Positions 1 to 55,740 of a stretch of 64,000 nt of DNA are shown piece after piece. The notes below the pieces were generated by a model. That model searched no databases and had not been told where the DNA came from. It saw only the letters and a program-made list of their open reading frames with translations. Source of the DNA: Magnolia sinica (Eukaryota; Streptophyta; Magnoliopsida; Magnoliales; Magnoliaceae); contig NC_080583.1 of NCBI RefSeq assembly GCF_029962835.1, positions 71,285,158-71,349,157 of the forward strand. Reading direction: 5' to 3'. Each line of letters begins with the position of its first letter. Positions within the stretch are counted from its first letter, which is position 1. A program made the translations under genes and the position numbers.

Positions 1-345
1 CGGACAATTTCTTTCACTTCACGATCAATTCCATGACTTAACAGTCATTTACAGTCCTCAAACAAATCCACTCACGGTCAATTTCACGACATTCTCTGCC
101 AAAATGCAACACATAAGTCGGAAAATTGACCCATAACTTAGTGAAATTGGCTACAGAGTTGTTGAATTGACCGTGAGTTGACTGCTTTGACATGGAATTC
201 GTTAAAATGACCGATAATTGCTTGATATTGACATCTTTTTGACCAACAACCTTGTATAAATTTACAGACAACTTCATGAAATTAACTGATAAATGAGTGC
301 AAGAGGTCCAAAATTTGTGAAAATTCACTAATAACTCTAATACTT
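1..345. repeat. Decayed copies of the 21-bp MULE repeat
   Basis: The first about 100 bases contain recognisable plus-orientation units (TTCACTTCACGATCAATTCC, CTCACGGTCAATTTCACG). From about 118 to 340 the same word appears in reverse complement (GAATTGACCGTGAG, AAAATGACCG, GAAATTGACC). The copies are far more diverged than in the main array at 3517-5877. They sit just upstream of the DUF1985/Ulp1 pseudogene, so they look like the eroded outer subterminal region of the same Mutator-like element. The element end is not visible and may lie left of the window. Confidence 0.6.
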
Positions 346-469
346 TCATTTGGAATTCGCCAAAAACTGATTTTTTACCACAACAAGTCAACTTTCACAT
401 TATGCTTAGTTAAATATTGAATGTTAACGTTGATATAATTTCTAATTCATCTTTGCAGATTACAAACCC

Positions 470-3370
470 TTGCATAAGGGATTTGACGAGTCGACCCCCA
501 CCCTGTCATGCAGATGTTCTTTAACATGGTGGTTTGATAGCGTCAAGAGTGGGTTGGAGAAAAATAACACTAGATTAAATATATTTAGGCAGACCCCATT
601 CTCATTTTTATTACACATTCCATCATTTAGGTTTATAGGAGCTATTTTTCACTCACTTATTTACAGATATATAGGTAATCTTGTATTCGAGATACAAGGG
701 AACCGTGTAAGATTTTTTGAGATGGACTTCACCCTAATAACATGGCTTAAGACTGGTGAACTCTCCATACCCAATATCCATCGTTCAAAAAAGCCAATAA
801 GAGAAAAATACTTCAATGAATATTCTATCCTAAAGAAACATGTATAGGAGGTGTTCAATAGGATAGTTGATAGCAATAAGCACGGAGATGTCGTGAAGAT
901 AGCCCTAATATTATGTGTAGAGTGGTTTGTTAGGGGAACTGACACAAATATTATATGTTGTACAGACTTTATCGACCTTGTCGACTCATTGGAAGACTTT
1001 AATATTTACCATTGGGGTAGTTTGGCCTTTCAGACGATGACGGAAGGGATCGAGAGTGCCTTGATGGCATCACAGGGGCTTCATTACAATGTCACCGGTT
1101 GCATATTTCCCCTACAAGTAAAGATTCTTTCCTCATCTATTTTAATTCATAGCAAACTATATTTATTTAAGATCATTTTGTCATTTCATTGTAACAAATA
1201 TGGGCTCTTGAGAGAGTACTGGCTCTCCAAGAATGTATAATTTCATACGTTCCCTCCCAAATTTCACGATTCATACTATATCGGGGATGGAAGGGTTGGA
1301 GGTATAAGAAGATTCATCAAATTCTAGAGAGTAAAGATGTAAGTCAATTTCTATGAAGCTAATGGTTACTCATTCAACTATATATGTGTGTATGCGCGCG
1401 TGCGCATGTGTGTATTTTTGTACATGAAAACGAAGATGTTCTCTTGCAGACTGAGATCGTTCTTATAATGGAGCCTACCATCGAGGAACTGAAGACGAAG
1501 GCCGTTCGTTTGGTCCGTGATAGATTTGACGTAAGATGTCACAAATGTCTTCTTTTTATGTTGATATTTTATATTTAATTTGACATGTTATATAATTGAT
1601 ACATACATTGCTTCATTTTGTAGGGCACTAAAGATGAAGATGATGAAGATATGGAAGAGAGATTAAGACAAGGAAAGGGAGAAGAAGGGGGAGAGGAAGA
1701 GAGTACTAATGAGGGAGAGGGAGAGGGAGAGGGAGAGGGAGTGGGATTGTAATTGACTAGGGAGTTGAGGGAGGATAGGGAGGACCTGGAGGCACAGAGG
1801 CTTCAGTTGGAGAGGGACAGGGAAGAGTTGAAGCTTCTCGAATGCACGCTAAAAGTGAGAGAAGAATGGATGGAGAGGGAGAGAGAAATAGTACTCAAGG
1901 AGGTTGAACTAATGCTAAAATTGAAAGAAACCTTGAGGTTAGAGAATGAAGAGTTGAATGAGAGGGCGGTTTTGAAAAAGGAGAGGGAAATGCTAATAAG
2001 GGAGAAGGAAGAACTGAAGAAGGAGAGGGAAGAGTTGGAGGAGGGTAAGGCGGAGTTGAAGAAGCAGATGGAGGCGTTTCGTATAGAGAAGATTCAGTTT
2101 TGGAAGGAGAATGAGTTAGAGAATCAGAATGAAGAGTTTGAGAAGGAAGATGAGGATCCATTAGGCGTTGATATATGCGAGAAATCAATGTATTCCATTC
2201 CAGTATATAAGAGAACTAAGAGGATGGTGAAGCCGTCTGTCTACAAGTGTTCTCCATTCACTTCTATCTCTGCTATTGAAATCACTCAAAGCAACGCCAC
2301 CGACAATGGGAAACAAAAAGAATTTCCCACTTCTCCGATAACCTTTGAGCCAAGATCGATTCATTTAAGGTAATATCAGAGGACGAATTCCATGAATTAG
2401 AAAGTTGGGACAATGCAAACAAAGAATCACCAGAATTTGTTTGGTTCAAGACCATATGGGAGAAAAATGCATGAGTTGATAGTGTGGTATGTAATTCACA
2501 CACATACATATATGGTTATTGAACACTTATATTAGAGTAGAGCTTGATTTTTCATCTTTATTGATTAGGCTATTGACAGGTACGTCGATTTCTTAGAGAG
2601 AAGGCATCGATCATTTCTTACTTTATATACAAAGGATTACAAGTTGTCCCACATTTTTTTTCTAGTAACTGTATGAATTGGATCATGGTTATTATCTTGT
2701 GTCATTATATGATATATGTTCTAATTTGGTATGTTGTCTGTAATAGACATGTATCGGCATGCAAATATTGACATTGACAATGTATCGGGATGCTGACAGT
2801 GATGAAGCGTGTTCATTAATAGAAGTAGAGAAACTCAATGTTCACAGCATTGATAAACCTCGTGAAGGGCAGAAGCCCATGTGACATTATGAAGAGGTAA
2901 TGGCGTCATTACAAGTTATCAACGCTAGGTGTACCCATTTCTATAATTTTTGGATATTGATATCTTATCTTCCCAAACATGGACAGGCATACGTACCAGT
3001 CAATCACGCCAACAGTCATTTGTATCTGATGGTCATCCATCCTCGAGACTGAGAAGTCATTATACTTGACAGTTTATACTCAAGGGCACTCAGTCGATAT
3101 AGGGAACATATCAAGCTGATGAAAGAGGCCTTGCCTATATTATTCTATGCCATAGGAGATATGTCTATATTTGAAGGAAATGCTTGAACTGTCAGAGAAG
3201 AGACTTCTATACCAAAGCAGGCGAATGGATATGATTGTGGCATTTTTGTCATGAAATATATCGACATTTTGTGCAGCGATCAAATTTTGTCGGGGAGAGA
3301 CTTGTAGCAATTCACTTCCAGCTTTAAGAAGTCAATAGCCTATGATTGCCTGAGTGACCTCAAAATATGA
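470..3370 (+). pseudogene. DUF1985 / coiled-coil / Ulp1-like (C48) protease gene of a Mutator-like element, broken
   Basis: The first part (470-1117) reads like a plant DUF1985 domain: FRQTPFSFLLHIPSFRFIG, a VRFFEMDFTLITWLKTGE block, then DVVKIALILCVEWFV and DLVDSLEDFNIYHWGSLAF. DUF1985 continues after a probable intron (about 1118-1201) to a GT donor at 1339. A short exon (1450-1530) and a Glu/Lys/Arg-rich coiled coil (1624-2369) follow; the coiled coil begins with a (GAGAGG)n tract. The C-terminal part is an Ulp1-like cysteine protease: PVNHANSHLYLMVI with candidate catalytic His at 3017-3019, LDS Asp at 3068-3070, Gln at 3218-3220 and Cys in NGYDCGIF at 3236-3238. In-frame stops at 845, 1750, 3050, 3185 and 3305 and a frameshift near 2365 show it is dead. 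Genes of this type are known passengers or partners in plant Kaonashi-type and VANDAL MULEs. The family and pseudogene status are secure; exon limits are approximate. Confidence 0.85.
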
Positions 3371-3516
3371 TATATTTGTCTTACGCATGAGAAGAATCAG
3401 AAAATTTTGTGAAATGTTGTAAATTATTGTAAATGATGTCTTGTAAAACATTTATGGTGAAATGATGTAAATGATGTATTGTATATTTTGTCAAAATTTT
3501 GTAGTAAATGATGTCT
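3371..3516 (+). other. Spacer between the Ulp1 pseudogene and the array, with a short direct repeat
   Basis: This AT-rich 3' flank of the protease pseudogene contains several near copies of the word GTAAATGATGT between about 3430 and 3511, directly before the first 21-bp repeat unit. It is probably the 3' untranslated region of the element gene. No coding signal was seen. Confidence 0.45.
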
Positions 3517-5877
3517 TCCATGTATTTCACGGTCAATTTCATGCATTTCACGATCAATTCCGGTGATTTGGCTTCACTTCATGATTATTTCCATGCATTT
3601 CACGGTTAATTCCTTTCACTTCACGGTCAATTCCGTGCATTTCACAGTCAATTACGACGACTCCGCTTCACTTCACGGTCAATTCCATGCATTTCACGGT
3701 CAATTCCCTTCACTTCACGATCAATTCCATGCATTTCATGGTCAATTCCGGCAATTCCGCTTCACTTTACAGTCAATTCCCTTCACTTCACGGTCATTTC
3801 CATGCATTTCACGGTTAATTGTAGCGATTTCGCTTCACTTCACAATCATTTCCATGCATTTCACAGTTAATTCCCTTCACTTCACGGTGAATTTCATGCA
3901 TTTCACGGTCAATTCCATGCATTTCACAGTCAATTCCGGCAAATCCGCTTCACTTCGCGGTTAATTCCATGCATTTCACGGTTAATTCCCTTCACTTCAT
4001 GGTCAATTCCGTGCATTTCACGGTCAATTACAACAATTTCGCTTCACTTCACGGTCAATTCCATGCATTTCACGGTCAATTCCCTTCACTTCACGGATAA
4101 TTCGATGCATTTCACGGTCAATTCCCTTCACTTCACGGCCATTTTCATGCATGTAACGGTTAATAAAGGCGATTCCACTTCACTTCAGAATAATTTCCAT
4201 GCATTTCACGGTCAATTCCCTTCACTTCATGGTCAATTCCATGCATTTCACGATCAATTCCATGCATTTCACGGTCAATTCCGGCAAATCCGCTTCAGGT
4301 CACAGTTAATTCCATGCATTTCACAGTAAACTCCCTTCACTTCACGGCCAGTTCCATGCATTTCACGGTCAATTCTCTTCACTTCACGGTCAATTCCATG
4401 CATTTCACGGTCAATTCCCTTCACTTCACAGTCAATTCAATGCACTTCACGGTCAATTCCCTTTACTTCACGGTCAATTCGGCTTCACTTCATCGTCATT
4501 TCTATGCATTTCACGGTCAATTCCGCTTCACTTCATGGTCATTTCTATGCATTTCACGGTCAATTCCCTTCATTTCACGGCCAATTCCATGCATTTCACG
4601 GTCAATTTCCTTTTCTTCACGGTCAATTCCATGCATTTCACAGTCAATTTCGGCAAATCCACTTCACTTCACGGTCAATTCCATGCATTTCACAGTCAAC
4701 TCTCTTCACTTCACGGTCAATTCCATGCATTTCACAGTCAATTTCCTTCACTTCACGGTCAATTCCATGCATTTCACGGCCAATTCCAGCGATTCCGCTT
4801 CACTTCATAGTCAATTCCATGCATTTCACATTCAATTCCCTTCACTTCACGATCAATTCCATGCATTTCATGGTCAATTCCGGCAATTCCGCTTCACTTC
4901 ACGGTCAATTCCCTCACTTCATGGTCAATTTCATGCATTTCACGGTCAAGTCCATGCATTTCACAGTCAATTCCGGCAAATCCGCTTCACTTCGCGGTTA
5001 ATTCCATGCATTTCACAGTTAATTCCCTTCACTTCATGGTCAATTCTGTGCATTTCACGGTCAATTACAATAATTTCGCTTCACTTCGCAGTCAATTCCA
5101 TGCATTTCGCGGTCAATTCCCTTCACTTCACAGTCAATTCTATGCATTTCATGGTCAATTCCGGCGATTTCGCTTCACTTCACGGCCAATTCCATGCATT
5201 TCACGTTCAATTCCCTTCATTTCACGTTCAATTCCATGCACTTCACGGTCAATTCCCTTCACTTCACGGTCAATTCCATGCATTTCACGATCAATTCTGG
5301 CAAATCCACTTCACTTCACAGTTAATTCCATGCATTTCATAGTAAACTCCCTTCACTTCATGGTCAATTCCATGCATTTCACGGTCAATTCCCTTCACTT
5401 CACGTCAATTCCATGCATTTCACGGTCAATTCCCTTCACTTCACGGTCAATTCAATGCACTTCACGGTCAATTCCCTTTACTTCACGGTCAATTCCGCTT
5501 CACTTCATGGTCATTTCTATGCATTTCACGGTCAATTCCCTTCATTTCACGGTCAATTCCATGCATTTCACGGTCAATTCCCTTTACTTCACGGTCAATT
5601 CCATGCATTTCACAGTCAATTCCGGTAAATCCGCTTCACTTCACGATCAATTCCATGCATTTCACAGTCAACTCCCTTCACTTCACGGTCAATTTCTTTC
5701 ACTTCACGGTCAATTCCATGCATTTCACAGTCAATTTCCTTCACTTCACGGTCAATTCCATGCATTTCACGGTCAATTCCAGCGATTACGCTTCACGTTC
5801 ATTTCCATGCATTTCACGGTTCACTTCATGGTAAATTCCATGCATTTCACGGTCAATTCCCTTCACTTCACGGTCAC
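3517..5877 (+). repeat. Large 21-bp tandem array (42-bp dimer), plus orientation
   Basis: About 112 units of 21 bp run over 2.36 kb. The two alternating monomers share TTCACGGTCAATTCC and differ in the remainder, CATGCATTTCACGG versus CTTCACTTCACGG, giving a 42-bp higher-order period. Variant units (TCCGGCAAATCCGCTTCAC, TCCGGCGATTTCGC) recur about every several hundred bases, which suggests a longer secondary period. Because 21 is a multiple of three and the unit has no stop, long open frames appear in several registers, reading as MHFTVNS / LHFTVNS heptads. These are a by-product of the repeat and are not annotated as genes. The array ends abruptly at TCACGGTCACC. The same unit in inverted orientation forms the arrays at 14783 and 19335. 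Confidence 0.95.
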
Positions 5878-6858
5878 CATTCGCATCATGCAAGAAGGGA
5901 TTCTTGGGGAGTGGCCTATCTGTGATTGAGCCACAAGATACACAAATTGGACCACTGGTGGTTGGACCCCACCCATATTAGCTGCTGGGATGAATTAAAA
6001 GCACCATCTGGTTCAGTTGAGGATCACATGCTACCTTCCATAGAGACTTATCTTTACATCTCAATTCTTGCCTTGCTTTGTCGTGCTTTAGGTGAAATCT
6101 GAACAGGAAAAAAGATCAGTATATCATACGTAACACTTACACTAGCAATTAAGATGCGACAATCAAATTACATTACTCCGATCTTCTTTAGAGCCTACCA
6201 TCAGTTTCATCTTCTGAAGCTCGCCAATGTCGATTTGCTTCTTTGCAGGACCTAACTCAATCCCTATTCAATGTTGGGCAGGCAATCATAGCCATCCCAT
6301 CCATGGCTTGGGAAAAGGATGGTATAGAAAACAAGGCCAAAACAAGAATGGATTGGACCGATTTGTGAAATTCTTTCATGGTAGTCTATAAAATGTGTTT
6401 TCGACTTCTTTTTTTAAGAGAAGATTTTTTTTTTTTTGTTTGGCCTTGATATACAATTCAGATAGAACAAATGGAATCTCCAAGTGAACCAATGCAATAA
6501 AGAGCACTATAACTTAATAGTGCTTCGAGTGCGCTTGAGCATTTCTATTAGAAAATATCCGTTTAATAAGCTTTCACCAAAAGAGATCTTTCAAGGCTGG
6601 GATGAAAAAGAAAAAGAACTGTTATATTCATAGATGTTTCCTTTATATCCTTTAAATCACATATGGTAATGGTGGCCTTCTACAATGACACTGTGCATGT
6701 GAATATATAGATTATCATACTTTGTCAGGCATGGTTCCTTTTTGCTAAGGAATGATATCATTGTATGCAAATGAAGCACATCTGGTTGGCACACATCGAA
6801 GGGGCTCTCCAGATGAAGGCGCAAGAGTCAACATGATGACCGAATAAAGTACGTAAAT
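5878..6858. other. Non-coding stretch
   Basis: No gene is supported. The stretch is ordinary AT-rich DNA with a short poly-T run near 6427-6439. Confidence 0.5.
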
Positions 6859-7036
6859 CATAAGGGACCCAACCCGGTCGACCCTGACTCTCTATCCCAC
6901 TGACCGGTCGACCGGGTCCCAACTCAATTGACCCTAACTGCCTGCCCAACATTGAATCGGGGTCGACCGGGGCCCAACCCGATCGACCAGGTCTGTGGAC
7001 AGAGAGTCAGGGTCGACCGGGTTGGGTCCATTATGA
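6859..7036. repeat. Long inverted repeat with GGTCGACC palindromes (foldback or MITE-like)
   Basis: Arms at 6859-6900 and 6995-7036 are near-perfect reverse complements. The core ACCCAACCCGGTCGACC plus its continuation into CTGACTCTCT is identical over 27 bp between 6867-6893 and 7001-7027. The roughly 95-bp loop contains further GGTCGACC / GATCGACC words, so the whole transcript could fold into a long GC-rich hairpin. A 16-bp copy of ACCCGGTCGACCGGGT also occurs at 14446-14461. No open frame was recognised. It could be a foldback element or a hairpin small-RNA source. Confidence 0.8.
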
Positions 7037-8235
7037 GGGGGCCCTGCTTAGTCCTTAGGTCCACATAGATGTAGGCATTCACATGTATCCTCATAGCATC
7101 CCACTGAATTCATGCAACATTATCACAGTCTATCATCATCACATACATGTACTACTATAGCAATCGTAGATGGTCGCAAATCCACAAGTGAACCATATCG
7201 ATATGTTGTCGCATGCGTCTATGACATGTCCAATACTCCACTTGAATAGGCCGATTGGTGGGTCACCAACCCATACTTTGGCTTATAAGGTGGCCCATTG
7301 ATCGCCATAATCAGTCCATTCAAGGGCCCATTCATCATCATTTGATAAGTCCTAAGCATTAATTGGCCTAAATAGGACTACCACTAATGGGCTCACAAGG
7401 CATGCACTCAAGGTGGACCTAAGGCTAGTGAGCCACCACTCAATTGCCCTTGTGAACATGGTAGTGGGGTCCATAAGTAGGCCCAATATGGTCCACAAGG
7501 TGTGGTCCACAATGGCCTCGTGAATGGACAGATTTGGATGTAAATCAAACATTACAGTGGCTGGAAGGGTTTTCAACGATGGCCATTCAAACAAGGCTAT
7601 TTTATGTGGCGAAAACAGTCCTAAGAGCTTGCACTAAAATTTGCATCAATTTTCATGAAATTTGCACCAGATTGTCCACAATTGGGCCAATTACTGGCCA
7701 ATAATCTTCCCCAGTCAACCCCACTCCAGCCTTGGAAGTTGTCCACAAATTTCAGCCAATACCAACCATAATTTTCAACCCTAATCCTAGCCCCCACTTC
7801 AGTCTAACTGCATCCCTTCCACCTGCCTCATAATGGTCCTATTATAGCGATCTTTACAACCTATGACAATCCTAATATATCTCATACTTACACCTGGAAC
7901 CAACCCATAAAGTGTATTTGAACTTGTCTCTAAATCCAGCCATTTCAATTACTTGTTATTTAGATGTCTACATGCAATCATTCTTGCACATCTCACTGCA
8001 GTTCCAATCTACATTTGCATGCCTATTACAACCATTCAAATGCATCTTCCTATGCTCATTAAGCCAATCCCTATCTATCTTCCTACGATTACTATGATGG
8101 TCCTATTTTGGATGTTGTTTACATGCCTATTACAGCCTACATTTGCTCATTCCTATTTTAGATGTCTACATGCAGCTAATTCCCATGCTCATTAAGCCAA
8201 TCACTGTAGTTCCAATCTACATTTACATGCTTATT
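7037..8235. other. Non-coding stretch with a partial local duplication
   Basis: No gene is supported. Segments around 7957-8071 and 8153-8235 share TTTAGATGTCTACATGCA, CTCATTAAGCCAATC and GTTCCAATCTACATTT, i.e. a diverged duplication about 190 bp apart. The solo LTR that follows is inserted at the right edge of the second copy. Confidence 0.5.
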
Positions 8236-11200
8236 TGTAATGCCCCGTATTTCAAGGGCCGAGTAGGAACTCAGCTCCCGAATTCTCGGGTGCCACGTAT
8301 GCCCTAATGAGTTCCAGATTCCAATGCATTTGGGTTTATTATTAAGCAATGACGGGTTTAGCAAACCATAAGCATGAGAATATCATAAAATGTAAATAAG
8401 GGCCGTTAAACATATAAGATATCCAAAATACAGTACTAAGAAAATCCAAACTGGGAACTAGACCCACCCAGATAAATACCCCAGATGACTAGAGCCCTAA
8501 CCCATGTCCCACGACCATCCAACCATAAACTAGAAGAAACCGCTAAAGTCTGGGAGTGCGTTCGCTCCTCCTCGTCGTCATCTGCACCGACATCGTTCAG
8601 CGCGTCCCACTCCAAGGTACCTTCATATATACCGGATTCTAATTCGTGTTTTAGAACACCATCCTAAAGTGGGAGTGAGTAGCTAACTCAGTAGTACCAT
8701 TAACAATAGGCTACATAAATTATCATGCATGGAATATGTTTAATGAATAGTAAACATCATAGAAACCTATATACTATTGTTAATGCAAATGCATGGTTAT
8801 AATATGATGCATGTTCCTCACCACCAACGCTCCCTCAAGAGACAACATCTTACGTTCGCAATGAACAACACTCCCTTAATTTGCGACCTCGACTGCATAA
8901 TCACCACAATAATAATGCAATGTCGTGAAATATGTTAGCCTAGTTGGTTAATTAGGTTCATTCATCCAGTAGGTTGGGAAAACCGGAATACCCTTAGTAG
9001 AGTTATTGCCCTAACTCGATCACGCGGCTCAGGAGTCGTGGTCATGCAACTCTCGCGACCCTTAGCCCTATATGGGGTCATCAATCCCGAAAAGAAGTAT
9101 AATCACCAACATAAACAATTGGGACTTAATGTCCTACTCGCAGTCACTATGGGGATGTCGTCACCCCAGCATAGGCCGACAACACGGGCACAGTGTCCTA
9201 TGCCACCGTCCCCGTGTTACAAGTCTAGGTGCTCACTAGTCACTACGGGGAGGCTCGTCATCCCAGCGTAGGCCGACAGCACCGATATAGTATCTCATAC
9301 CACCATCCTCGGCTCCTGATTCTTGTGGGCTACAAATTATAATTAGTAGTGGGCGCAAAGATTTTAGGGTATTTCGGGTTCATACAGGCGTGATCAAACA
9401 TGGTTAATGTACAAGGATGGCCGACCTAAGAGTCAATATGCCCCCACAAGTTAAACCTTAAACTAAACGGCCTGAATCAATTTACAACTTAACTAATCGG
9501 GCCGAATTTACCCATGGGCTGATCCAACGATGGGATTCCCAAATTATTTCTGGTTATCGGCCAATCCATGAGAGGACAAGTTCACAGATGGATAACATAC
9601 ATTCAGTAAATTTAGGAATGATTTCACAAATGGCAACAAAATTCAGCATTTTAAGTATATGGATAACAATATACCAATCTTCACCAAACTACGAGGATCA
9701 TGTTCAACATATTTCAACAATTATAACAAGATGGATAGCAACATGTAAAGCTCCACCCAAATTTACAAATTATGCATATCATAATCCAGCCTATACATCA
9801 CATGGACAGTCATATAACAATACACTGAAGTATCTCTTCCATAGATCAACATGAATCACTCAATTCGGCTGTACATTGAATACTAAGGCCAGTAACTCAA
9901 CCAATCAACCAATTTGCAACATTTCTTACCTTCACTCAAACATAATTAATCATATAATCAGAAATCAATCACTAATAACCAATTTACAGCAATCCATGTT
10001 ATCATTTGAAGCATAGTTAACACCAATTCAAGGAATCAACAATCAACTAGCAGTAATTTGGGGAAATTTAAGTATTTACACCCTACATGAGCATGCAAAT
10101 GCATAAGTCACGTATTTGGGGTATTGGGGCCAAATTCCTTCCCATAATTTTAATAATTCCTAGTCCATTATCCTATATATGCAGTCCAAATGAAAATTCA
10201 GCCACATGCACTAATTCACCAAACAAATTCATTAAGCCTACGCTAGGCGTGATAATCGGCCACCTAAAGGTAATGGTCCGCACCTATTGTCGACCGGAAG
10301 CCTTTGCAAGCATCCTAACATCGTCGGGTCCACAAACTTGACGTGTCGGGCCCTGAATTATAAGAAAATGGCGGTAGGATGCATGTATGTGGCTGATCAT
10401 TAGGAAAAATGGGCTGACATTTGATTCTTACCTTAGATCGGGCGTAGCTCGGTTCTACAGCGGTAGGATCAACATTTCAAAGTTGAAAGGGTGATAAGTG
10501 CAGGGAGTTGCGATCTTTAAGCACCAAGGTGCAATCCTCCACCCTCACTTCCCACTCACTCTCTCTCTCTCTCTCTCTCTGAATTTCAGCTGCTAAAATC
10601 TCAACAAATGAGGGAGAGAGGGCTGAACTTTATATGCCCAAAATTATTTCAGTTGACCCTACAGTTTGGTGTAATTCCCCCTATGGCCCTGTGGGCCCAT
10701 TTTTTTAATCATTAGGGCTACCCTGATAGGCCCTTGGCCCATCTAATTCATGGAATAGGTGCCACATGACTTGATGAAGGGCTGGGTAAAGTTTGACGGC
10801 AAACGGATGCGGGATTTTGCCGGAATGGCCCGATTGCGATCAATGGTCACCGATCCTCGATCAACGGTCAGATTTTGTGGACAAGTGCAAAGAAATATCT
10901 TCAACCCATGGTGCAAATTTGGGTGGAATCCGACGGCTGAAATGTCCTAATTTATTACCCTAAGTAGCGGGGCCATTTGTTTTAAGATTCAAATTTTTAG
11001 CTAATACTTGGGAGAGTTGCATTTTACAGGTGTTGATTGGACGACACAAATCGTCTATTTTAATGCGTCTTTTGGGTCCATTTCCTACGATGGACCACAA
11101 GCCCAGTGAGATGGACATTACTCTATAATTTCAAAACTAGCGGCCCATTAACAAGCGGTCCAGAGCTTGTTTGGGTAATCGGGGCACTTCTAGAATAAAT

Positions 11201-11677
11201 TGGGTTGAGAAATTTCTTTGGTGCAGTGGTTGAGGCATGGATTAACTAAGTTCACGGTATGGCCTATTTGAAATTAGCGAAAATGGTGATTCGGTCATGA
11301 TCACTTTAAACCGTCAATTTTAGGCTAAAAGAGTAACTGGATTGATTTGGTTTATTAATTAAGATTCGACCCATAGCTGGCTCGGGTATGGGTAAATCTC
11401 TAGTTAAGTTACGGTAGTTTGATTAGTCGGTGGTAGGTCGGTTAGATTTAGGCCCTATGTGAACAGATTATGGGCTGAACTCGATGTTCAAGTAATCGGT
11501 TAGATTCATTGGTCTTCTATGGTCGATCAATCTTATTTATACAGTTTTTATCGGTATCAACCGTGTAGAAGCCCATCTCGAGTGTTAAGGGTCAGTAAGT
11601 GATGACGTGGCTAGTTATAAAAAGAAAATTTTAAGGATTTTTGGTAATTCAAAATAGCGAAAATTTAGGGTGTTACA
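8236..11677 (-). mobile_element. Solo LTR of a Tekay/Del-type Ty3/gypsy element
   Basis: The 3,442-bp segment starts TGTAATGCCCC and ends GGGTGTTACA, so the minus strand begins TGTAACACCCTAAATTTTCG, a start typical of Tekay/Del LTRs. It is flanked by TTATT (8231-8235) and CTATT (11678-11682), a 5-bp target duplication with one mismatch. No primer-binding site, polypurine tract or coding region adjoins it, so it is a solo LTR left by LTR-LTR recombination. Orientation comes from similarity to the LTR at 61697, whose PBS fixes its direction: both hold a block with CCCAGCGTAGGCCGAC and GTATC(T/C)CAT. That block is tandemly duplicated here (9144 and 9240, period 96 bp). A (CT)n run lies at 10557-10580. 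Confidence 0.8.
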
Positions 11678-12879
11678 CTATTGCAACCTTGTTTCTATTA
11701 ATTTCCTAAGAGAATAATTTTAGATGTTGCAATATGTGTAAAATTTTTAAAGCACTTCATTTCCATGTAAAAGTTTCAAAAATAACATTTGATTTATAGA
11801 AGCTTCCACAATCAATCAATTGAAAAGATTATGGTTGACCTACTAGAAAAGCATTAACATTGTCAAACTTGATAAGTGCAGAGAAAAAGCTTGGGAAAAT
11901 GAGAAGTAAAATTCTCACTGTCTATGGCTCAGAAGTGGAAGAATTGAATGTTTTGAGAGAGAAGGACCACCTGTTTCTTTGTTGAATGTGTGTGTATTTG
12001 TTAGGTCTAGACAAGTTCTAGTGCAGGATCAGGGCCATCCCTTAGATACACCATGTTATGAAATTACCATCATCATTATCTAAGCCTTTTCCCAGCTATT
12101 TGGGGTAGGCATGTCATGAAATTACCTAGGCCCTAAAATCAAGCATGTCCATTCATCAAGTGGGCCATCCTTCAAAAAAATTCATCATGTGGGCCTTAAT
12201 TTTAAGAGAAATCTGAGTTCCCAACAGGCGTAGTTACATACAATAGCACCCGTGGGTAAAAAATGAGGGGAGAAATTGGTTTTGGGTGTCACCAAAGTAG
12301 GCCCTAATGTTCTCAGACCTTAAATCAAGCATTTCTTTGTAGCTCAAATACAGAACTCAACTTTGTAGCTCAAAAACGCGTTAAAGCTGCTTCAAGAACT
12401 AAAGCTTTTCAAGCTTGACCAAATTTCGCTTTTCTTTGTATTGTTTTTAAGAGTCTCATTTTCTGGATATGCCAAATCTGTAGATTTATGAGGGTATAGA
12501 TTTGGGAAATCCACAGATTTAGCAAATTCCCAATAAAAGAAAGAACATGGGAGATTTTAAATATGTGGATTTCGCAAATCCCTGCCCCAAATCCCTCACC
12601 CAAACAGCCCATAAATTTCAGAAACCAGAATGGACTGAAAAGATCAAATTGAGTTTGGTCACAAGCAACTGACTATCTGACCTGACCCATCCATAAACAA
12701 AAGGCAAAACCATTAGGTCAAATATATGGATTCCACCAATTTGGCTGGTGAAGCATAGAAAATAAACATATAACCACAATTAGGCAAAAAATAACCAGTC
12801 AAGCATAATCTCAAATCCAAACAAACAAAATAAAAACTAGTGTTCCACAATCACTAACACAGCTCCAAACAAACAAAAC
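11678..12879. other. Non-coding stretch with an RTE-LINE tail fragment
   Basis: No gene is supported. Bases 12068-12106 (ATCATCATTATCTAAGCC ... TATTTGGGGT) match the inverted 3' tail of a plant RTE-type LINE, also seen at 26663 and 28550. Around 12450-12610 there are short inverted words (AAATCTGTAGATTT) ending in CCAAACAGCCC, which resembles the right end of a MITE; its left end was not found. Confidence 0.45.
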
Positions 12880-14206
12880 AAAAACAGATGATGATGGATC
12901 TGTAAGCTCTTTAGCTCCTTGCTTCTTCAAGTATCTCAAGGACTGGTCTACTGGATTAAGGATCTCAATCATCCAGTTTTTGAATCAGTCGGATGCAGCA
13001 CTGCTCCATCCTTTTGAACACAGCATAATAGATCCTTCAGGGTACGGAAGATCTTCTAGTTCCATTGCTCCTGTTCGGTCCTTTGGGTCTTCATGTCAAC
13101 CCTCATATTAGTTAATTCAGACCGAAGTTCCTCTTCCACCCGACTGAAGCGCTCATGTATAAGCAGGGGGGCATAAAATCTTCATCGATGTCTTCATCAT
13201 TATTTTCCTCCTTCTCCCCTTCTTCTTCCTCAAATTCTTCTCCTCTTTTAACCTCTTCTTGCTCATTCAATTTCATCCTTTTAATAGTATTGGCGTCAAT
13301 GAATTCTTGCGGCTCAAGCCTCGCATTAAGGATGAAACTAAACCCACAGTCTTTGGCCATCTTACAGACCAACCGTCCGAAGGGTAAGGAGAGATTGGTT
13401 TTAGTAGTGGTGGCATTTAAGATGTGGCACATTACAATAGATGGATAGCAAACCTTCTTGCCCGTACCTAGTAAATACAAAACCTCCAACATATATTGTG
13501 TTACTTGTGTATGATTTCCCAATTTAGGATATACATTGTACATGAAGACAAGGTGGAGGAACCTGTAAACTGGAAGCATCCTTGCTAACTCTAAACAATT
13601 ATCATCCTGTATCCACTGCTTACGTTCACCACAGATATGAACAGTCCTCTCGTCCCTGTACCTGGACCTCTTCGCATCCTTATATGGAACAATCACTGTC
13701 CCGCATGACACACTAGTAATCCTCCCAATGTCAGACACTTTAAATTTTTTTAAGGAATTACCGATTACTACATCGAAGGTCAGTGACTGTAGACAAGGAT
13801 TCTGAATTGAAGCATAGAAATGTCGCATAGTCTCGACATTGACATTGTTGTAGGGTGTGAAGATGAGATTCTACCCAATCGTGGCAAGCCACTTGAGCTC
13901 TTGGGTATCGACGAACAAGTCCTTGTTCACATACCGCTCAAAGGTTATCTTGCGTTTGGCGAATCTTCCCAAATCCACGGCTTGTTCCGCCTTGACTCCC
14001 TGGCTATGAGTTGTTGACGGTCCCACCCAAGACGTGGATGGATCCGTGCGAGGTCTCGAGACCACTCTCTTAGCCCAGGTAGCGCCGACCGCTGAGGTTA
14101 ACGCTCCAATGTCCTCTCTTCGCTTGGAACGGCGATTATAATCTTGTTCATTCACTTCTTGTGCGTCACGCTTCTTAGCCACAAGCCTCACCATTAATGG
14201 GAGCAA
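12880..14206 (-). pseudogene. 'Putative plant transposon protein' domain gene, broken
   Basis: The minus-strand frame from 14206 reads through a basic segment (RRSKRRED) into FERYVNKDLFVDTQELKWLATIG, an in-frame TAG (13871-13873), then NLIFTPYNNVNVETMRHFYA. It continues for 238 codons through SCGTVIVPY, a HLVFMYNVYPKLGNHTQV block and LPFGRLVCKMAK. This order matches the plant 'putative plant transposon protein' family found near MULE and gypsy elements. An acidic run (EEEEGEKEENNDEDIDEDF) is followed by a frameshift near 13155, after which another frame reads ERFSRVEEELRSELTNMRVDM, the expected coiled-coil end. One nonsense codon and one frameshift over about 1.3 kb indicate a fairly young pseudogene. 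Its biochemical function is unknown. It lies close to a 21-bp array, so it may belong to the same element. Confidence 0.75.
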
Positions 14207-14782
14207 TAGTCATAAAGAAACAAGAATAAGGAATGCCCCCATTGGAAAGGAAAATGTGTTTTAAGAATCTGGAAAAAAATAAGGTTTTGAGAATCTTTCT
14301 CAATGGAGGTAGAGAAAGATTTGTTTTGGGATTGTGGAAGAAGATGGGAAAAGGAGAAATAGAAGTGGAATCAGATGAAATGAATTTAAATAAGATGAAA
14401 TAGGGTTTTGGCCCAATGGCCTCGGGCCATGGGAGAGCGAGACCCGGTCGACCGGGTAAGTGGACATATGGTGGGCCCCAAAATCCCAAAATCTCTGCCA
14501 TTGGATAATCTCATATGTGAGGAATGAGGGATTTCCCACTTCCTTTTTGTCTTCTCTAGCATTACTGACGTGTAGGGCCCCTTATTTGGAAATCCGGACC
14601 GTTTTTCTGTTGTGCCCCACCTTAGGATCGACGAAGCCTTCAATTAACGTCTGTAAAATAACCTTGGACTTTGTATTTGTGGCTTACTGATAGAGGGCTG
14701 AGAAGAGAAATGTTATCATGGTCTGAAAATGCTAGTCGATTGAAATTTTCAATGTGAGAGATTTTTGGGGCATGGTTCATTG
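14207..14782. other. Upstream region of the transposon-protein pseudogene
   Basis: No gene is supported. The region contains the palindrome ACCCGGTCGACCGGGT (14446-14461), shared with the inverted repeat at 6859, and a perfect 21-bp direct repeat containing GAAAATGCTAGTCGATTG at 14724-14744 and 14781-14801. The second copy runs straight into the 21-bp array. Confidence 0.55.
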
Positions 14783-15890
14783 AAAATGCTAGTCGATTGA
14801 ATTGACCGTGAAGTGAAGGGAATTGACTGTGAAATGCATGGAAATGACCGTGAAGTGAAGGGAATTGACCGTGAAATGCATTGAAATGACCGTGAAGTGA
14901 AGTGAAATGACCGTGAAGTGCATTGAATTAACCATGAGGTGAAGGGAATTGACCGTGAAATGCATGGAATTGACCGTGAAGTGAAGGGGATAAAAAATGA
15001 AATGCATGGAAATGATCGTGAAGTGAAGCAAAATGACCGTGAAGTGCATTGAATTGACCGTGAAGTGAAGGGAATTGACCATGAAATGCATGGAATTGAC
15101 CATGAAGTGAAGGGAATTGCCCGTGAAATGCATGGGATTGACCGTGAAATGAAGGGAATTGACTGTGAAATACATTGAGTTAACCGTGAAATGCATTGAG
15201 TTGACCGTGAAGTGAAGGGAATTGACTGTGAAATGCATTAAATTGACCGTGAAGTGAAGGGGATAAAAAATGAAATGCATGGAAATGACTGTGAAGTGAA
15301 GCGAAATAATCGTGAAGTGCATTGAATTGACCGTGAAATGAAGGGAATTGACCGTGAAATGCATTGAATTGACTGTGAAGTGAAGGAAATTAACCGTGAA
15401 ATGAAGGGAACTGACCGTGAAATGCATTGAATTGACTGTGAAGTGAAGGGAATTGACTGTAAAATGCATTGAATTGACCGTCAATTGAAGGGAATTGACT
15501 ATGAAATGCATGGAAATGATCGTGAAATGAAGGAATTGACCGTTAAATGCATTGAATTGACCATGAAGTGAAGGGAATTGACCGTGAAATGCATTAAATT
15601 AACCGTGAAATGCATGGAAATGACCGTGAAGTGAAGAAAATTGACCGTGAAATGCATGGAATTGACCGTGAAGTGAAGGGGATTGACCATGAAATGCATG
15701 GAAATGAAAGTGAAGTGAAGCGAAAAGCCCGTGAAGTGCATTGAATTGACCGTGAAGTGAAGGGAATTGACCGTGAAATGCATGGAATTGACTGTGAAAT
15801 GCACGAAATTGACCGTGAAGTGAAGGGAATTGACCGTGAAATGCATGAAAATGACCGTGAAGTGAAGGGAATTGACCGTGAAGTGAATGT
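14783..15890 (-). repeat. 21-bp tandem array, inverted orientation
   Basis: About 52 units of the repeat seen at 3517-5877 appear here as GAATTGACCGTGAAATGCAT alternating with GGGAATTGACCGTGAAGTGAA. Minus-strand frames therefore read MHFTVNSLHFTVNS. Occasional units carry GGGGATAAAAAATGAAATGC. The array lies immediately 3' of the minus-strand MULE transposase pseudogene, the mirror image of the left-hand array lying 3' of the Ulp1 pseudogene. Confidence 0.93.
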
Positions 15891-15994
15891 CTTATTGGAA
15901 ATTTGGATCGAAGTGGTAAGAAATTCGCAATTTCAAAGAAAGCAACAAATGTATTCAATATATAACATTCACAATCGTATTTAAAAAATGCACT
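15885..15994 (-). repeat. Array-border module, copy 1
   Basis: GAATGTCTTATTGGAAATTTG, AAATTCGCAATTT, AAGCAACAAATGTATT and ATATATAACATTCACA occur in this order directly beside the array. The same module in the same order borders the right side of the array at 19335-19765 (copy 2 at 19757-19900). It is therefore a fixed part of the repeat family's end structure. Confidence 0.75.
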
Positions 15995-18459
15995 TCAAAT
16001 TACATTATTGCGGAGGTATTGAAAATTTGCAACTCTGACAATTATGCCCTGTTTATTTGCAACGTTTGCATGTTTTTGTTGTTCGTTCCTCTTCAAGGGA
16101 AAGAATCCGTGCCTTCTTCGGTCTTCCAGCTGACCTCGTCTATAGCAGGGACTTAATACTCGAACAATACTCCTTGAATCTAGAAGAAATTTTCCATTGA
16201 CTCTTGTCTCGTACTGGGTAGACGTAATCTTCATACATGATTTGGTAATTCCTCACCATGTATAACGGGTAACAATACTAATAATGAGGAAGATTATAGT
16301 TTACACATGCTGAAAGAACAAGAAAACAAGGCAATCCATTTACTTCAAACTCGCGACATGTACAAGAAAGCTCGTTGAGCTTGACGATATCATTGTAGTC
16401 TCCCACAATATAATATTCATCCTGAGAAATTGTGTGGCAACGAACATCTCCTGCCTTCGGTACGTATGAGATCCTTTAATTGTTTCTCGGCCCACGGTGT
16501 CAATGGTCCAATGAATAATAATGCTGATTCTCTTCTCTTATAGAACATCTCTTGAATTTTCATTTTGACGGTCTCTATCAACATAGTCATAGGATATTCT
16601 CGTGCTTCTTTAAATAGAGCATTAATACACTTAGCTATGTTTGTAGTGACCAAATTAATTTTTTTTCCTGGAAAGTGTGAAGATGCCCACTTTTCATACC
16701 CTATTTTCCTCAGCCATGCATGTACCGGGGGGTTGGCAAGTTCGATATCATGGATTAACTTTTCGAACTCAGCCCTCCTACAAGTCTTTACAGCTTGCCA
16801 GTAACAGATTTCTAACGACTTGTCTTTGAACATGTCCACCAAGTTTCGGTATATATGGTACGCGCGGTAGCCATGGATTGCTGCTTGGAAGACATGGGGA
16901 ACTTCTTTTATTAGACCTTTATGTCAGTTTGATATGATCACAAGACCAGCGCAATCCCTTAACGGATCGCTGAGGTAGGTAAGGAACCAATTTCAACTGA
17001 TGTTGTTCTCTGATTCTCCGATACTAAAAACGATTGAAAAGATATGATTGTCACCATCCAAAGCCGTAACAACGAACAAAACACCCTTTTACTTACCTTT
17101 TAGATGTGTCCCATTAATGGTTAAGACCTTTCACATAGATGTTTGAAAACTTTTGATACACTATCCGAGTGCAACAAAGCATCTCTCGAACCTCATCGTC
17201 TGTTGATTCACAAGAAGGGCAGTCACTATCCCTAGGTTCGCCATCCTCAACTCATGCAAGTACATCGAGAGTTCTTTGTAAGAGTCTTCATAAGACCCCA
17301 TTACGCGATCGATTGTAATCTCTTTAGTGTGCCATGCCTTCTTATACCTAATAAGAATATTATACTTCTCTTACATTGCGAATATAATGTCCTTTGGCCT
17401 TAACCCCAGGCGCTGCTCAATGTGATTGACAACCAGTTCACTGGCCAACTTACTGCTTGCTTGCCGATGATCGCTCTTCATTCATGACATTCCATATGTA
17501 TGTATGGACCTATAAGTCTTAATCTTGAATATCCCCGCTTCATTCATCCTAGATACTTGTACCCTTCATTCACGCTTATCTTTCATACACGTCATGGTGA
17601 ATTTCTTGGATGTGGAATATAGGACCTTACATTGAAAGTTATTACGAATTGTAAATTGGTTCAAAACATACTTACATCGGCTCTTATCCTTAAATGTTTG
17701 GCCAACGACTATATCAATCAGGTCATCAAGTGGATATAAATACAGTGAAAGGTCTATATTGGTGAAACCAACATCCTCGAAAGGCACAATGGGAAGCCTG
17801 CTGGTGAAGTCCGATGTTCGAGCTTATTCAGGCAATGGAATGCCGCTTCCACTTACGTTTCTGTCGTTGGATGTTGAGGGCAAGTCTACTCTTGTAAATG
17901 AAGGTGATGTCGTATATTCATTTCTGAGATTCACGTCAGCCGACGTCCTCACTTGACTTGTCATGAAGTTTGATGTCTGAGCCGGCTCGGGTATTAGAGT
18001 GTTGCTTAGAGGAACCTGTGAAGGTGATGTCATATATTCATATTTCCATCCATGTTCCTCACCCAAACTTACAACAGCTGGGGCGTCATGTTCGAAAGCA
18101 CTGCAAGCCACCGGGTCTTCGAGTATTGCTTTATTAGCGCGCTGTGTTGTCTCGATGAATTGAGGGATGTAGTGATCTAGATGCTTCAGTTGTGCTGCCA
18201 GGAACAATCTCACATCTTCATCGTCTTCAATTATAGCTGGAGGGGCTGATTCATTTGTGCAAGGGTACAGTATTTTCAACCTTATATCGTAATGCTCAGG
18301 TCTAGTCTTCGTAACTCTGTGCATTTTCGATACAAGCTGTTCATATGTAGTGTCAACTCCCACGGTAGTAGGTTTTGAGTAACCACCCTTGTAAATGTAT
18401 CCATTATTTTCGCTAACTAACTCCCTACCATATGAGCATATGATTATTACCGAAGCCAT
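15995..18459 (-). pseudogene. MULE (MuDR-type) transposase, multiply broken
   Basis: The minus-strand reading starts at Met 18459 with an N-terminal MULE segment (PB1-like, IRLKILYP and an acidic DDEDVRLFL), then meets a stop at 17824-17826. A MuDR DNA-binding segment follows (DIVVGQTFKDKS ... FTIRNNFQCKV). The catalytic region retains LTINGTHLKGK, VVTALDGDNHIFSIVFSIGESEN, HKGLIKEVPHVFQAA and KWASSHFPGKK / INALFKEAREYPM. Two positions where the family has catalytic Asp are Asn here (17113-17115 and 16927-16929). The C-terminal part has a degenerate SWIM zinc finger (ELSCTCREFEVNGLPC, 16300-16440) and a zinc knuckle (TCKRCK*TGHNCQSC, about 16010-16080). Stops and frame changes occur throughout. 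The usual role, transposition of MULEs by a DDE reaction, is lost in this copy. Confidence 0.88.
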
Positions 18460-18876
18460 TTTTTAAAAACAAACACAATAATATAATTCGTTTAGTATTC
18501 ACATGTATAAAGTGAATTTGACCGAGTAGTAAGAAATCCACCATTGTACTATCTTAAATATGATCAACTTTGCGGTTAGATTTTCAAAGTTCTCAAATAT
18601 ACCACTCAGTTCGCGATGATTTTCACTCACTTCGTAGTCAATTTCACTCACATCTAGGGCAGGTTAACTCACTTTCACATTGAATTTCACTCACTTCTCG
18701 GTCCTGAAGTGATTGAAAATGAGTGCAAAGTAAGTGCCTGTCTGATTTTTGGGCTCAACTGTAATTAACATGTAAATGGGTAACAATTATTCACCTAGGT
18801 AATTACCACATCTTTCCCAATATAGAAGTGACAACTTACTTTTTTAACACTTAAATCGAGAAATTTACAAAATCAA
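18460..18876. other. Upstream flank of the transposase with decayed repeat words
   Basis: Around 18600-18720 words such as TTTCACTCACTTCGTAGTCAA and GAATTTCACTCACTTCTCGG are recognisable relatives of the 21-bp unit, now in plus orientation and strongly diverged. This could be the element's promoter-proximal region. No gene is supported. Confidence 0.45.
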
Positions 18877-19310
18877 TGTGGGGCCCACCGTGATGTATGT
18901 GATGTATCCACACTGCTCATTTGTTATGCTACCTGAATTTAGGGCATGAGCAAAAAAAAGGGACAGATCCAAAGCTCAAGTGGACCACACCATAAGAAAC
19001 AACGGGAATCGAACACCTACCATTAAAAACTTTTTGGGGCCTTTAAAAGTTTTGCATATAGCTAATATTTGTGTTTTCCCCTTATCCATGTTTATGTGAC
19101 CCTATGAACAGGTTACATGATGAAAACACCTCAATGTGGGCCCAGTTAAGGAAATAACTTTTAACGGTATAAGAATTAAGGTCATTGTTTCCTTTCGTGT
19201 GAGTCATTTGAGTGTTTGATCAGCCTCATTTTTGGTCTAATGCCTCAAAATGTTATAATTGAATAGATGGACGGTGTGGATATATCATATACATTACAAT
19301 GGGGTCCACA
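18877..19310. mobile_element. MITE with about 38-bp terminal inverted repeats
   Basis: The left end TGTGGGGCCCACCGTGATG continues to GTATCCACACTG. The right end, read in reverse complement, is TGTGGACCCCATTGTAATG continuing to ATATCCACACCG, so the termini are imperfect inverted repeats about 38 bp long. The interior has no coding capacity. A second, more eroded member in the same orientation is at about 21056-21468, sharing CAAGTGGACCACAC, ATATTTGTGTTTTCC and TATGAACAG. No clean target duplication could be read. It separates the transposase pseudogene from the next 21-bp array. Confidence 0.75.
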
Positions 19311-19334
19311 TATTCCATTCCATACTTTTTTTTG

Positions 19335-19765
19335 GTGAAGGGAATTGGCTATGAAATGCATGGAAATGACCGCGAAGTGAAGGGGAATTGATCGTGAAAT
19401 GCATTGAAATGACCGTGAAGTGAAGGGAATTGACCGTGAAATGCATGGAATTGACCATGAAGTGAAGGGGAATCGCTGGAATTGATCGTGAAATGCATGT
19501 AATTGATTGTGAAATGAAGAGCATTGATAGTTAAATGCATGGAATTGACCGTGAAGTGAAAAGAATTGACCGTGAAATGTATGGAATTGACCGTGAAGTG
19601 AAGGGATTGACCATGAAATGAATTGAATTGGCCGTGAAGTGCAGGGGATTCACATGAAATTAACCGTAAAATGCATGGAATTGACCGTGAAATGAAGTGA
19701 ATTGACCGTGAAATGCATAAAATTGACCGTGAAATGAAAAGAATTGACTGTGAAATGAATGTCTT
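19335..19765 (-). repeat. 21-bp tandem array, second inverted copy
   Basis: About 20 units of GAATTGACCGTGAAATGCAT / GGGAATTGACCGTGAAGTGA are present in the same orientation as the 14783-15890 array. The units are more diverged and include short deletions. The array is followed by the module GAATGTCTTATTGGAAATTTG, as at 15885. Confidence 0.9.
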
Positions 19766-19900
19766 ATTGGAAATTTGAATCGTAATGGTAAAAAATTCGC
19801 AATTTAAAAAAAAAGCAACAAATGTATTTAATATATAACATTCACAGTCGTATTACAAAAAAATGTACTACAAATTCACAGTCGTATTACAAAAATGCAC
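19757..19900 (-). repeat. Array-border module, copy 2
   Basis: This is the second copy of the module described at 15885-15994. It has an extra internal duplication of TTCACAGTCGTATTACAAAAA (about 19842-19862 and 19876-19895). Its position outside the 5' side of the transposase pseudogene, whereas copy 1 lies on the 3' side, suggests a direct duplication of element ends or a second, mostly deleted element. Confidence 0.7.
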
Positions 19901-20160
19901 TACAATTTGACTGGTAAAATGTATGAAATTGACCTAGTAGTGCATGAAGTTGATCGATCAATTGATTATATTGAACAGGAACTAAGTGAAATTGACTGCG
20001 AAACTTCGTTAAATTGACTGCGAACTTCTTCGAGTTTATTGGATAGCCACATAAAATTAACTTGGCAATGCATGAAATTGACCACAAACTTCTAGGTAAA
20101 CACTTAAGAATTTACCTAGAATTTAAACTTCAAGGTAATTGATCGCGAACTCCAATCACT
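19901..20160 (-). repeat. Decayed 21-bp repeat relatives
   Basis: Words such as ATGAAATTGACC, TGAAGTTGATCG, GTGAAATTGACTGCGAA and TTAAATTGACTGCGAACTTC continue the periodic GAAATTGACnGnGAA theme without the regular 21-bp spacing. Together with bases 1-345 they mark the outer limits at which the repeat family is recognisable. Confidence 0.55.
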
Positions 20161-21055
20161 CCCTAACACTTCGTGAAATCCGTGTCCGAGAAAAAGAATA
20201 AGAGTGTGTTAATATGAAACATGTTCTTCGGAGAAAGGTCTTCAAGATTTCACGTTTACCAATGCATTGGCGTTCTCTTGGATAAAGAATGCACATAGAC
20301 TTGAGTAGTATGCAACATGGAAGATGTAATGCGATAGTATGATGGAGATTATATGGAGATTTAGTGAAGAAAATGTGTGAAAATAAGAAATAGGGATGAT
20401 ACTGGTGAGTCCGGACGTGTTTTTGGGCGTAAAGGAGAGAGTTGAGTGAAATTGATATAGAAGGGCATTTTTAACCTTTGGCAAGACATCCGTACGATAT
20501 GAGGCTTATTCTCTCGGGGGTGGGTGGATTTAAAAACAAGTGGGCCTAAAAAGGTAAATGAGCCATAAATGGGTCGTATGGTTGGAAATTTCTCCCGGCA
20601 CGTACATGAATCCGGGCTTAACAGGGTATCTCAGCCAGAATTAGCAAGAAAGAAACTTTGATACTGCGGCAGAGCGTGATCGATCATACGCACGCACTTT
20701 GTAATTTCTTAGAAATTGTATATGTGAAACATAAATTTATTTAAATTAAACCATGGAAACAATGAGCCTCGCTTTAGATGTATCAAGAAACAAAAAAGTT
20801 ATATTTATTAGGTTTTCTAATCATTGGACTGGTGGACATTTATTGGACAGTTAACAATAAAAGTACCCAATCATCCTATTCCAATAAATAAGTTTCCGCC
20901 AATCAGAGGTTAGGATTGTTCTACAAATCATATTTTGGAACCGCGACGGTTGATTCTGTTTGATTTCAGCGAATGAATGCTGCATGTACAACTCAATTGC
21001 CTACCTATCAAGTGCCATACTTTGCCAGAGTATCAAATAACTGGAAACCGATAAT
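20161..21055. other. Non-coding stretch; possible MULE end
   Basis: No gene is supported. GAAGGGCATTTTTAACCTTTGG at about 20460 resembles the GGGCATTTT-type ends of some plant MULEs, but no partner inverted repeat is in the window and no target duplication was found. The remainder is plain AT-rich DNA. Confidence 0.35.
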
Positions 21056-43740: not shown

Positions 43741-43755
43741 GAACTTCTCCCTTTC

Positions 43756-44478: not shown

Positions 44479-44517
44479 GGACCCATCCTTCTTCTTTACA
44501 AAGAGAATCGGTGCTCC

Positions 44518-45177: not shown

Positions 45178-45184
45178 GGGGTCC

Positions 45185-51909: not shown

Positions 51910-52171
51910 TAGTTCAAAAGGAAGTGTCCAATCTGGTGGACGTATAATAGGTGCAGTGGTAAGGGATGATTTAATTTTATTAAAGGCAATTGCACACTCA
52001 TCTGTCTAATTAAATGGAACATCCTTTTGGAAAAGATTAGTCAAGGGTCTAGTAATGACACTAAAGTTCTTGATGAACTTCTATAAAAACTAGCATGCCC
52101 TAGAAGTGATCTAATATCTCTAACAGTTCAGGGAATAGGTAGATTAGTTATAATGTCCAGGTTTGACCGAT

Positions 52172-53563: not shown

Positions 53564-53639
53564 GTCCTCTAAAATTCTCCTTGATCAGCGAGTTAGAGTG
53601 TAATCGTGGTTGGTTTAAGCTCGCCTAACCCCATTTGTT

Positions 53640-54104: not shown

Positions 54105-54155
54105 TATCTTGTTATCAATCTCTTTTCCACTTCTCTAGGTAATGATGGCCTTAGC

Positions 54156-55703: not shown

Positions 55704-55740
55704 TAATTCAAATAGTAAGTATGATACTTAAAATAAAAAC

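Follow-up and report, generated by a model that had tools for sequence, protein, structure and literature searches.

Organisation of the element

The window analysed here, a stretch of 64,000 nucleotides from Magnolia sinica (contig NC_080583.1, positions 71,285,158 to 71,349,157), carries a decayed Mutator-like element (MULE) in which a pseudogene for a DUF1985-coil-Ulp1 protein (plus strand) and a MULE transposase pseudogene (minus strand) face each other, with arrays of a 21-bp repeat around both. Coordinates follow the numbering of the window, negative values lying to its left (locus L010). The element spans -2563 to 20594, i.e. 23,158 bp, because its end sequence was found at -2563 (plus strand) and 20594 (minus strand), the only two matches in a scan of 84 kb comprising the upstream stretch and the window. 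Its left end, in L010, is therefore 2.56 kb outside the window, and the original prediction, which had placed the element at 1-20160, must be corrected on this point. The element displays terminal inverted repeats (TIRs), its ends are flanked by CCGGCACAT and CCGGCACGT, and it has a 9-bp target duplication whose copies match at 8 of 9 positions. Its features are the following.

-1832 to -1652, minus strand: short 21-bp array, ahead of the array starting at -1565 (core scan, 20 kb upstream read)
1..20594, no strand: part of the decayed MULE inside the window (end sequences; core found 183 times inside, 0 times in 60,842 flanking bases)
1..83, plus strand: last part of the 21-bp array that precedes the DUF1985 gene, the whole array running from -1565 to 83 (core scan)
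446..1120, plus strand: DUF1985 exon of the pseudogene, with an in-frame stop inside (window pieces weak; relative P0001 above the Pfam cut-off)
1624..2370, plus strand: charged, coil-like linker of the DUF1985 pseudogene, with an in-frame stop inside (homologous stretches in L019 and E1)
2885..3304, plus strand: Ulp1-like protease domain (Peptidase_C48) of the DUF1985 pseudogene, with in-frame stops (Pfam match; homologous in L019, E1 and E2)
3526..5858, plus strand: 21-bp array, 76 cores (core scan)
13112..14209, minus strand: open frames akin to Pfam Transposase_32, located between the facing arrays (41.8 bits, below the cut-off of 45)
14800..15882, minus strand: 21-bp array, 39 cores, downstream of the transposase gene (core scan)
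16143..18462, minus strand: MULE transposase pseudogene, in several frames (DBD_Tnp_Mut, SWIM; genome relatives)
19386..19754, minus strand: 21-bp array, 13 cores, upstream of the transposase gene (core scan)
20459..20594, minus strand: right TIR (end-sequence scan)
20595..20603, no strand: right-hand target duplication of 9 bp, 8 positions of which match the left-hand one

Both genes contain disabling in-frame stops and changes of frame, so that this decayed copy would give no intact protein. The DUF1985 pieces of the window score 13.3 and 22.1 bits, below the Pfam cut-off of 35.1, which the annotated relative P0001 passes with 45.3 bits; comparison with P0001 also suggests that an intron starts near 1120. 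The identification of the second gene as a DUF1985 gene is thus borne out through this relative. No solved structure related to DUF1985 by sequence was found up to an E value of 1. The Ulp1 domain of the window scores 30.5 bits at 3188-3304 (cut-off 20.7), and the transposase pieces match DBD_Tnp_Mut (31 bits) and SWIM (25.5 bits), both above the cut-offs. In E2 (the reverse complement of L031 and L032 joined), the transposase open frame displays MULE (72.8 bits), DBD_Tnp_Mut (55.8 bits), Transposase_mut (50.3 bits) and SWIM (25.1 bits) domains. Together with the inverted ends and the target duplication, these domains uphold the assignment to MULEs.

Most of the stretch from 5.9 to 14.7 kb was matched by none of the 18 array loci described below and is therefore probably inserted or private. 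The Transposase_32-related frames at 13112..14209, which match none of these loci either, are probably a separate insertion outside the common plan of the element.

A convergent gene pair across the genome

The whole M. sinica genome (1.84 Gb) was scanned for the two genes, the window DUF1985 and transposase queries being considered for their best 150 matches among 1,088 and 1,009 candidates, respectively. A transposase lies within 50 kb of 38 of the best 150 DUF1985 matches, about 1.2 such neighbours being expected by chance, and it is downstream and on the opposite strand in all 38. Within 100 kb, 41 pairs are found, 39 of them convergent with the transposase downstream and 2 with the transposase upstream. 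With the DUF1985 domain of E2 as query (best 150 of 1,312 candidates, some places being common to both DUF1985 lists), 48 matches have a transposase within 50 kb, downstream and convergent in 47. The mirrored layout that had been proposed from the window is supported by this convergent arrangement, which recurs across the genome. Indeed, the order coil and Ulp1 (plus strand), array (plus strand), spacer, array (minus strand) and transposase (minus strand) was seen independently in L019, and the gene opposite to the transposase carries an Ulp1 domain in the window, L019, E1 and E2.

Arrays as a mobile part of the family

With at most 1 mismatch allowed, the window contains 131 copies of the core TTCACGGTCAATT, for 0.06 expected in shuffled sequences, which rules out a chance motif and confirms that the arrays are real. 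Counting cores inside and outside the element gives the contrast listed above, 183 cores versus none in the flanking bases examined. Genome-wide, the exact 21-mer of the window (motif A) is found in 1,897 + 1,928 copies, 3,825 in all, and its reversed control in none.

Such abundance could be taken to mean that the arrays are an unrelated genomic satellite, present by chance in the element of the window. Eighteen array loci of 10 kb were taken from the first 100 exact 21-mer matches listed, all on C1, a few of the listed clusters being left out. Thirteen of them show no match to the gene pieces of the element (E 0.001, 10 kb per locus), a point in favour of the satellite, and gene pieces were matched in the other five (L016, L019, L022, L025 and L026). 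However, 14 of the 18 carry the end sequence of the element (13 by a 40-mer scan, L013 by a short inner BLAST match only); no end sequence was seen in the stretches examined of L012, L019, L024 and L025. This end sequence, GAGAAATTTACCACTGTACGACCCATTTATGG, is common to compact array loci and occurs 741 times forward and 756 times reverse in the genome (at most 3 mismatches), its reversed control giving 0 matches. The conserved ends extend over about 120-130 bp according to BLAST, and the similarity between the two sides of L011 reaches about 1.3 kb.

Furthermore, both ends were seen in nine elements. The 9-bp target duplication is exact in L028, where it is a T-rich stretch, and in L045; it matches at 8 of 9 positions in the window element, L021/L047, L027, L046 and a C2 element (L048/L049); and none was seen in L011 and L026. 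L045 is a complete element of 2,990 bp with the exact duplication CTAAATTTG, and carries 16 plus-strand followed by 33 minus-strand cores (at most 2 mismatches) and no B motif (see below). No gene-piece match was found in L021, L027, L028, L045, L046, L048 and L049, the outer 2 kb of each side being covered for the C2 element L048/L049.

Since 14 of the 18 loci carry the end sequence and several are complete with target duplications, the gene-less array loci are non-autonomous relatives and not an unrelated satellite, and since complete gene-less elements carry both ends and arrays, the arrays travel as a cis part of the transposon family. The satellite explanation, which also conflicts with the lack of any core in the flanks of the window element, is rejected for the sampled loci and retains hardly any probability overall. 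The original prediction had counted against itself both arrays without the two genes and an unrelated satellite: the former do exist in the literal sense, at 13 of 18 loci, and the latter fails for the loci sampled.

When TIR conservation was considered as a means of telling transposase and DUF1985 apart as possible readers of the arrays, single A'-type copies (see below) were located about 1.27 kb inward of A-like ends at two places of C1, and no A-like end was found in E2.

The motif changes with the DUF1985 lineage

The 1.6-2.2 kb upstream of 15 DUF1985 copies were read, namely those of the window, E1, E2 and L033-L044, the latter twelve being picked to span the identity range of the window-query matches rather than at random. 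The 21-bp period is kept while the motif changes with the DUF1985 lineage (TTCACGGTCAATT, TTCGCGGTCAATT, CTCGGTCAATT, TTTGCCTCGCT and TTTGCCCCGCT). Copies with 84-88% identity to the window DUF1985 are preceded by class A, the motif of the window, and E1 (about 80%) by a mixed TTCACGGTCATT/TTCGCGGTCA variant in higher-order repeats of 136 bp. Motif A' (AGTTCGCGGTCAATTTCACTC) accompanies copies at 66-71% identity, A'' (CTCGGTCAATTTCATGTAATG) those at 60-62%, B' (GTTTGCCTCGCTGAATTTCAT) L039 (56%) and L041 (53%), and B (GTTTGCCCCGCTCAATTTCAT) those at 49-50%. Genome-wide, exact motif B is found in 1,108 + 1,132 copies and motif A' in 283 + 323 (at most 1 mismatch), with no match for either reversed control. 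In E2, degenerate telomere-like CCTAAA repeats (about 25-438) adjoin the B-motif arrays.

When 16-mers are counted with at most 3 mismatches, class A occurs 63, 43, 23 and 10 times in the window, L034, L033 and E1, and B or B' in none of the eight A-side loci. The six B-side loci contain 17-36 B' and 16-35 B units, 0-1 of A, 0-6 of A'' and at most 1 of A'. As classes overlap within the A side (in the window, 63 A, 36 A' and 17 A'') and between B' and B, the clean separation is that of the A side from the B side only.

The motif classes follow the DUF1985 tree, which, from the in-frame piece, gives the order A, A', A'' and B' (L039), then L040, L041 and B. An apparent position of L039 (B') beside L037 (A'') came from a reading that was half out of frame; the in-frame piece places it between A'' and the other B loci. 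The distances between DUF1985 domains and between arrays are correlated (in-frame piece, Mantel r 0.85, p 0.0001, n = 14 without L040), r being 0.73 when the array-less L040 is included and 0.72 with a longer, partly out-of-frame reading. This turnover and the convergent layout support the VANC-like logic put forward in the original prediction.

A constant spacing and a fixed CpG

The best lag is 21 in 14 of the 15 upstream regions versus 2 of 26 control pieces, and the period-21 signal exceeds the maximum of the 26 controls in 14 of the 15. Where successive class-A cores (at most 3 mismatches) are 15-27 bp apart, the distance is exactly 21 bp for 1,681 of 1,732, even though the 2,247 class-A units carry a mean of 3.7 differences from their consensus. 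This suggests that the 21-bp spacing is held. By comparison, alignment of one flank with the other at six of the sampled array loci gives 53 gap openings per 423 mismatches. The ungapped core scan misses cores with internal indels and thus gives an upper view of the regularity, to which homogenisation may contribute.

In class A, distances of 31, 52, 73 and 94 bp occur in addition to multiples of 21 (mean resultant at 10.5 bp, 0.84; n = 308). A helical phasing of every spacing was considered and dropped, since these distances probably go back to duplication and are not seen in class B (resultant 0.07, n = 11, including five 45-bp steps), A' and B' offering 6 and 3 steps. Only the 21-bp period, which corresponds to two turns of B-DNA, is therefore claimed.

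A CpG occupies the same position in every class consensus. It is kept in 1,328 of 2,446 class-A units, and 829 of the other 1,118 have TG or CA, the products of CpG deamination; it is kept in half or more of the B, B' and A' units and in 5 of 20 A'' units. As most of the non-CG forms are TG or CA, the pattern fits past CG methylation.

These data bear on the idea that the arrays are by-products of slippage or unequal exchange within a transposon lineage, drifting along with no dedicated reader. Higher-order repeats do exist inside the arrays, and a correlation between DUF1985 and array distances is expected from common descent alone. However, steps of 21 bp persist in diverged units next to flanks rich in gaps, even if seen from the favourable side; the period survives several motif changes; and several copies have arrays around both genes, while arrays form much of the small elements. 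We therefore give such passive drift a low probability.

The putative role of the DUF1985-Ulp1 protein

We favour, with a probability of roughly 0.6, the reading that this is a KAONASHI/VANDAL-like MULE whose DUF1985-Ulp1 protein would read the 21-mer of its own lineage and counter silencing there. The element would code for a transposase and, facing it, for a DUF1985-coil-Ulp1 protein acting like VANC. The latter would recognise the 21-bp motif of its lineage, both around the two genes and in gene-less derivatives, and might occupy the arrays in register, with a unit at every second helical turn; from the spacing, we infer binding of successive units on the same face of DNA. It would then prevent or reverse silencing at the arrays, perhaps by removing SUMO from silencing factors. 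As the motif differs between lineages of the same genome, a given protein would release its own relatives only.

Possible relatives of the protease part are the protein records P0009 and P0010 (Magnolia) and P0011 (on a 1,226-bp contig), which keep His, Asp and Cys residues that we take to be the catalytic ones of Ulp1. P0009 aligns with yeast Ulp1 (1euv) across these three positions, and P0010 has Arg in place of Gln in the domain. Another DUF1985 protein, P0006 (236 aa, on a 970-bp contig), is 46-55% identical to the Magnolia ones and has a longer N-terminal part.

Several observations weigh against the favoured reading. All four Ulp1 domains read as DNA (window, L019, E1 and E2) are damaged: each contains stops, L019 and E2 have lost the active-site cysteine by substitution, and E1 has an altered histidine. 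One of the 15 DUF1985 copies, L040 (53% identity), has no array in the 1.6 kb upstream. At 2 of the 18 sampled loci (L018, 327-6501; L022, 4499-6169), A and B arrays are adjacent, probably through nested insertions, which would permit relative dating of the clades. The correlation between DUF1985 and arrays would also result from the shared descent of the whole element. Finally, the match between motif and lineage does not by itself name the reader, because the N-terminal part of the transposase also diverges between clades: window and E2 share 44-52% identity there, near the DUF1985 value, and 77% in the core.

This last point leads to another explanation, in which the MULE transposase reads the arrays as subterminal sites, possibly demethylating them like maize MURA or Spm TnpA, and the DUF1985-Ulp1 protein has some other task. 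Gene-less elements bearing arrays need a transposase to move, and both MURA and TnpA are reported to hypomethylate their own elements (PMC10398659). However, in long elements the arrays extend for up to many kb inside, around both genes; A-type ends carry a separate conserved terminal sequence; and the known precedent for fast-changing tandem motifs is VANC, a DUF1985 protein (PMC5735166). We consider a transposase reader unlikely.

A bolder extension of the favoured reading is tentative: DUF1985-Ulp1 proteins might form a phased lattice on one face of DNA, with one protein every 21 bp and a methylatable CpG at its centre, and relieve the lattice of silencing that depends on SUMO, the spacing staying fixed while the code changes. 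With several private codes coexisting in one genome, MULE clans would not free each other and, as the system would already be present in a magnoliid, it could perhaps be as old as the early flowering plants.

Relationships with known systems

PMC5735166 describes Arabidopsis VANC (DUF1985) proteins that bind short tandem motifs in noncoding VANDAL regions, with a local loss of CG methylation, related lineages having different motifs; RNA-directed DNA methylation (RdDM) targets the same regions (PMC10398659). The Magnolia element resembles VANDAL21 and VANDAL6, with VANC21 and VANC6, in being a MULE with a transposase, a DUF1985 second protein and tandem noncoding motifs varying by lineage (PMC5735166). 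It differs by its Ulp1 domain, strict 21-bp period and magnoliid host, and perhaps by its clear TIRs. Binding and demethylation were tested for the VANDAL motifs, YAGTATTAY and AGTTGTCC/AGTTGTAC. VANDALs are described as having no TIRs or short, degenerate ones, of 46-174 bp within the clade (PMC6446971).

In KIU VANDALs, a VANC gene carrying Ulp1 acts on KIU motifs, and the capture of Ulp1 is placed at the monocot/eudicot separation, according to a review (PMC13317346). Since a carrier has now been found in a magnoliid, the question of an earlier capture arises. An Ulp1 gene pointing against the transposase is likewise found in KAONASHI (KI/KIU) elements and in the MULEs of grapevine, melon and rice that bear ULP (PMC2528002). 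However, KI-MULEs are called non-TIR, unlike the Magnolia elements. Maize MURA and Spm TnpA are also element-coded proteins that lower the methylation of their own family, but they are other proteins, and the passage of PMC10398659 on them mentions no DUF1985-Ulp1 gene.

Globally, MULEs with DUF1985 and Ulp1 and with motif turnover are already known in print, and motif turnover matched to the DUF1985 lineage is the pattern reported for Arabidopsis VANC and its targets. Of the new motif/protein pair that the original prediction envisaged, a VANC-type protein bearing Ulp1 is not new in itself (PMC13317346). As far as the portions of these sources extend, three features appear to be new: a host among the magnoliids, a 21-bp phase that stays constant while the motif changes, and the single fixed CpG per unit. 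The main comparative paper is said to be that of Sasaki et al. 2022 (EMBO J), with eudicots in its title, and may contain part of these features. The literature library searched gave no paper combining Magnolia with both Mutator and VANDAL, and none joining DUF1985 with MULE.

Other features of the window

An open frame at 26928-27758 appears to resemble a host ubiquitin-specific protease, through a protein motif of 19 letters. Those at 43021-45300 and 50722-55727 resemble two Gypsy-type long terminal repeat (LTR) retrotransposons, with gag, protease, reverse transcriptase, RNase H and integrase features judged by eye.

Implications

If the favoured reading is true, sequence-specific transposon anti-silencing would reach beyond eudicots, well beyond Arabidopsis. 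The constant 21-bp spacing provides a structural prediction, namely same-face, in-register binding. A single Magnolia genome would then be a natural ladder of protein/motif pairs, several of them with open reading frames, for mapping DUF1985 recognition, and such pairs could become tools to clear methylation at chosen sites.

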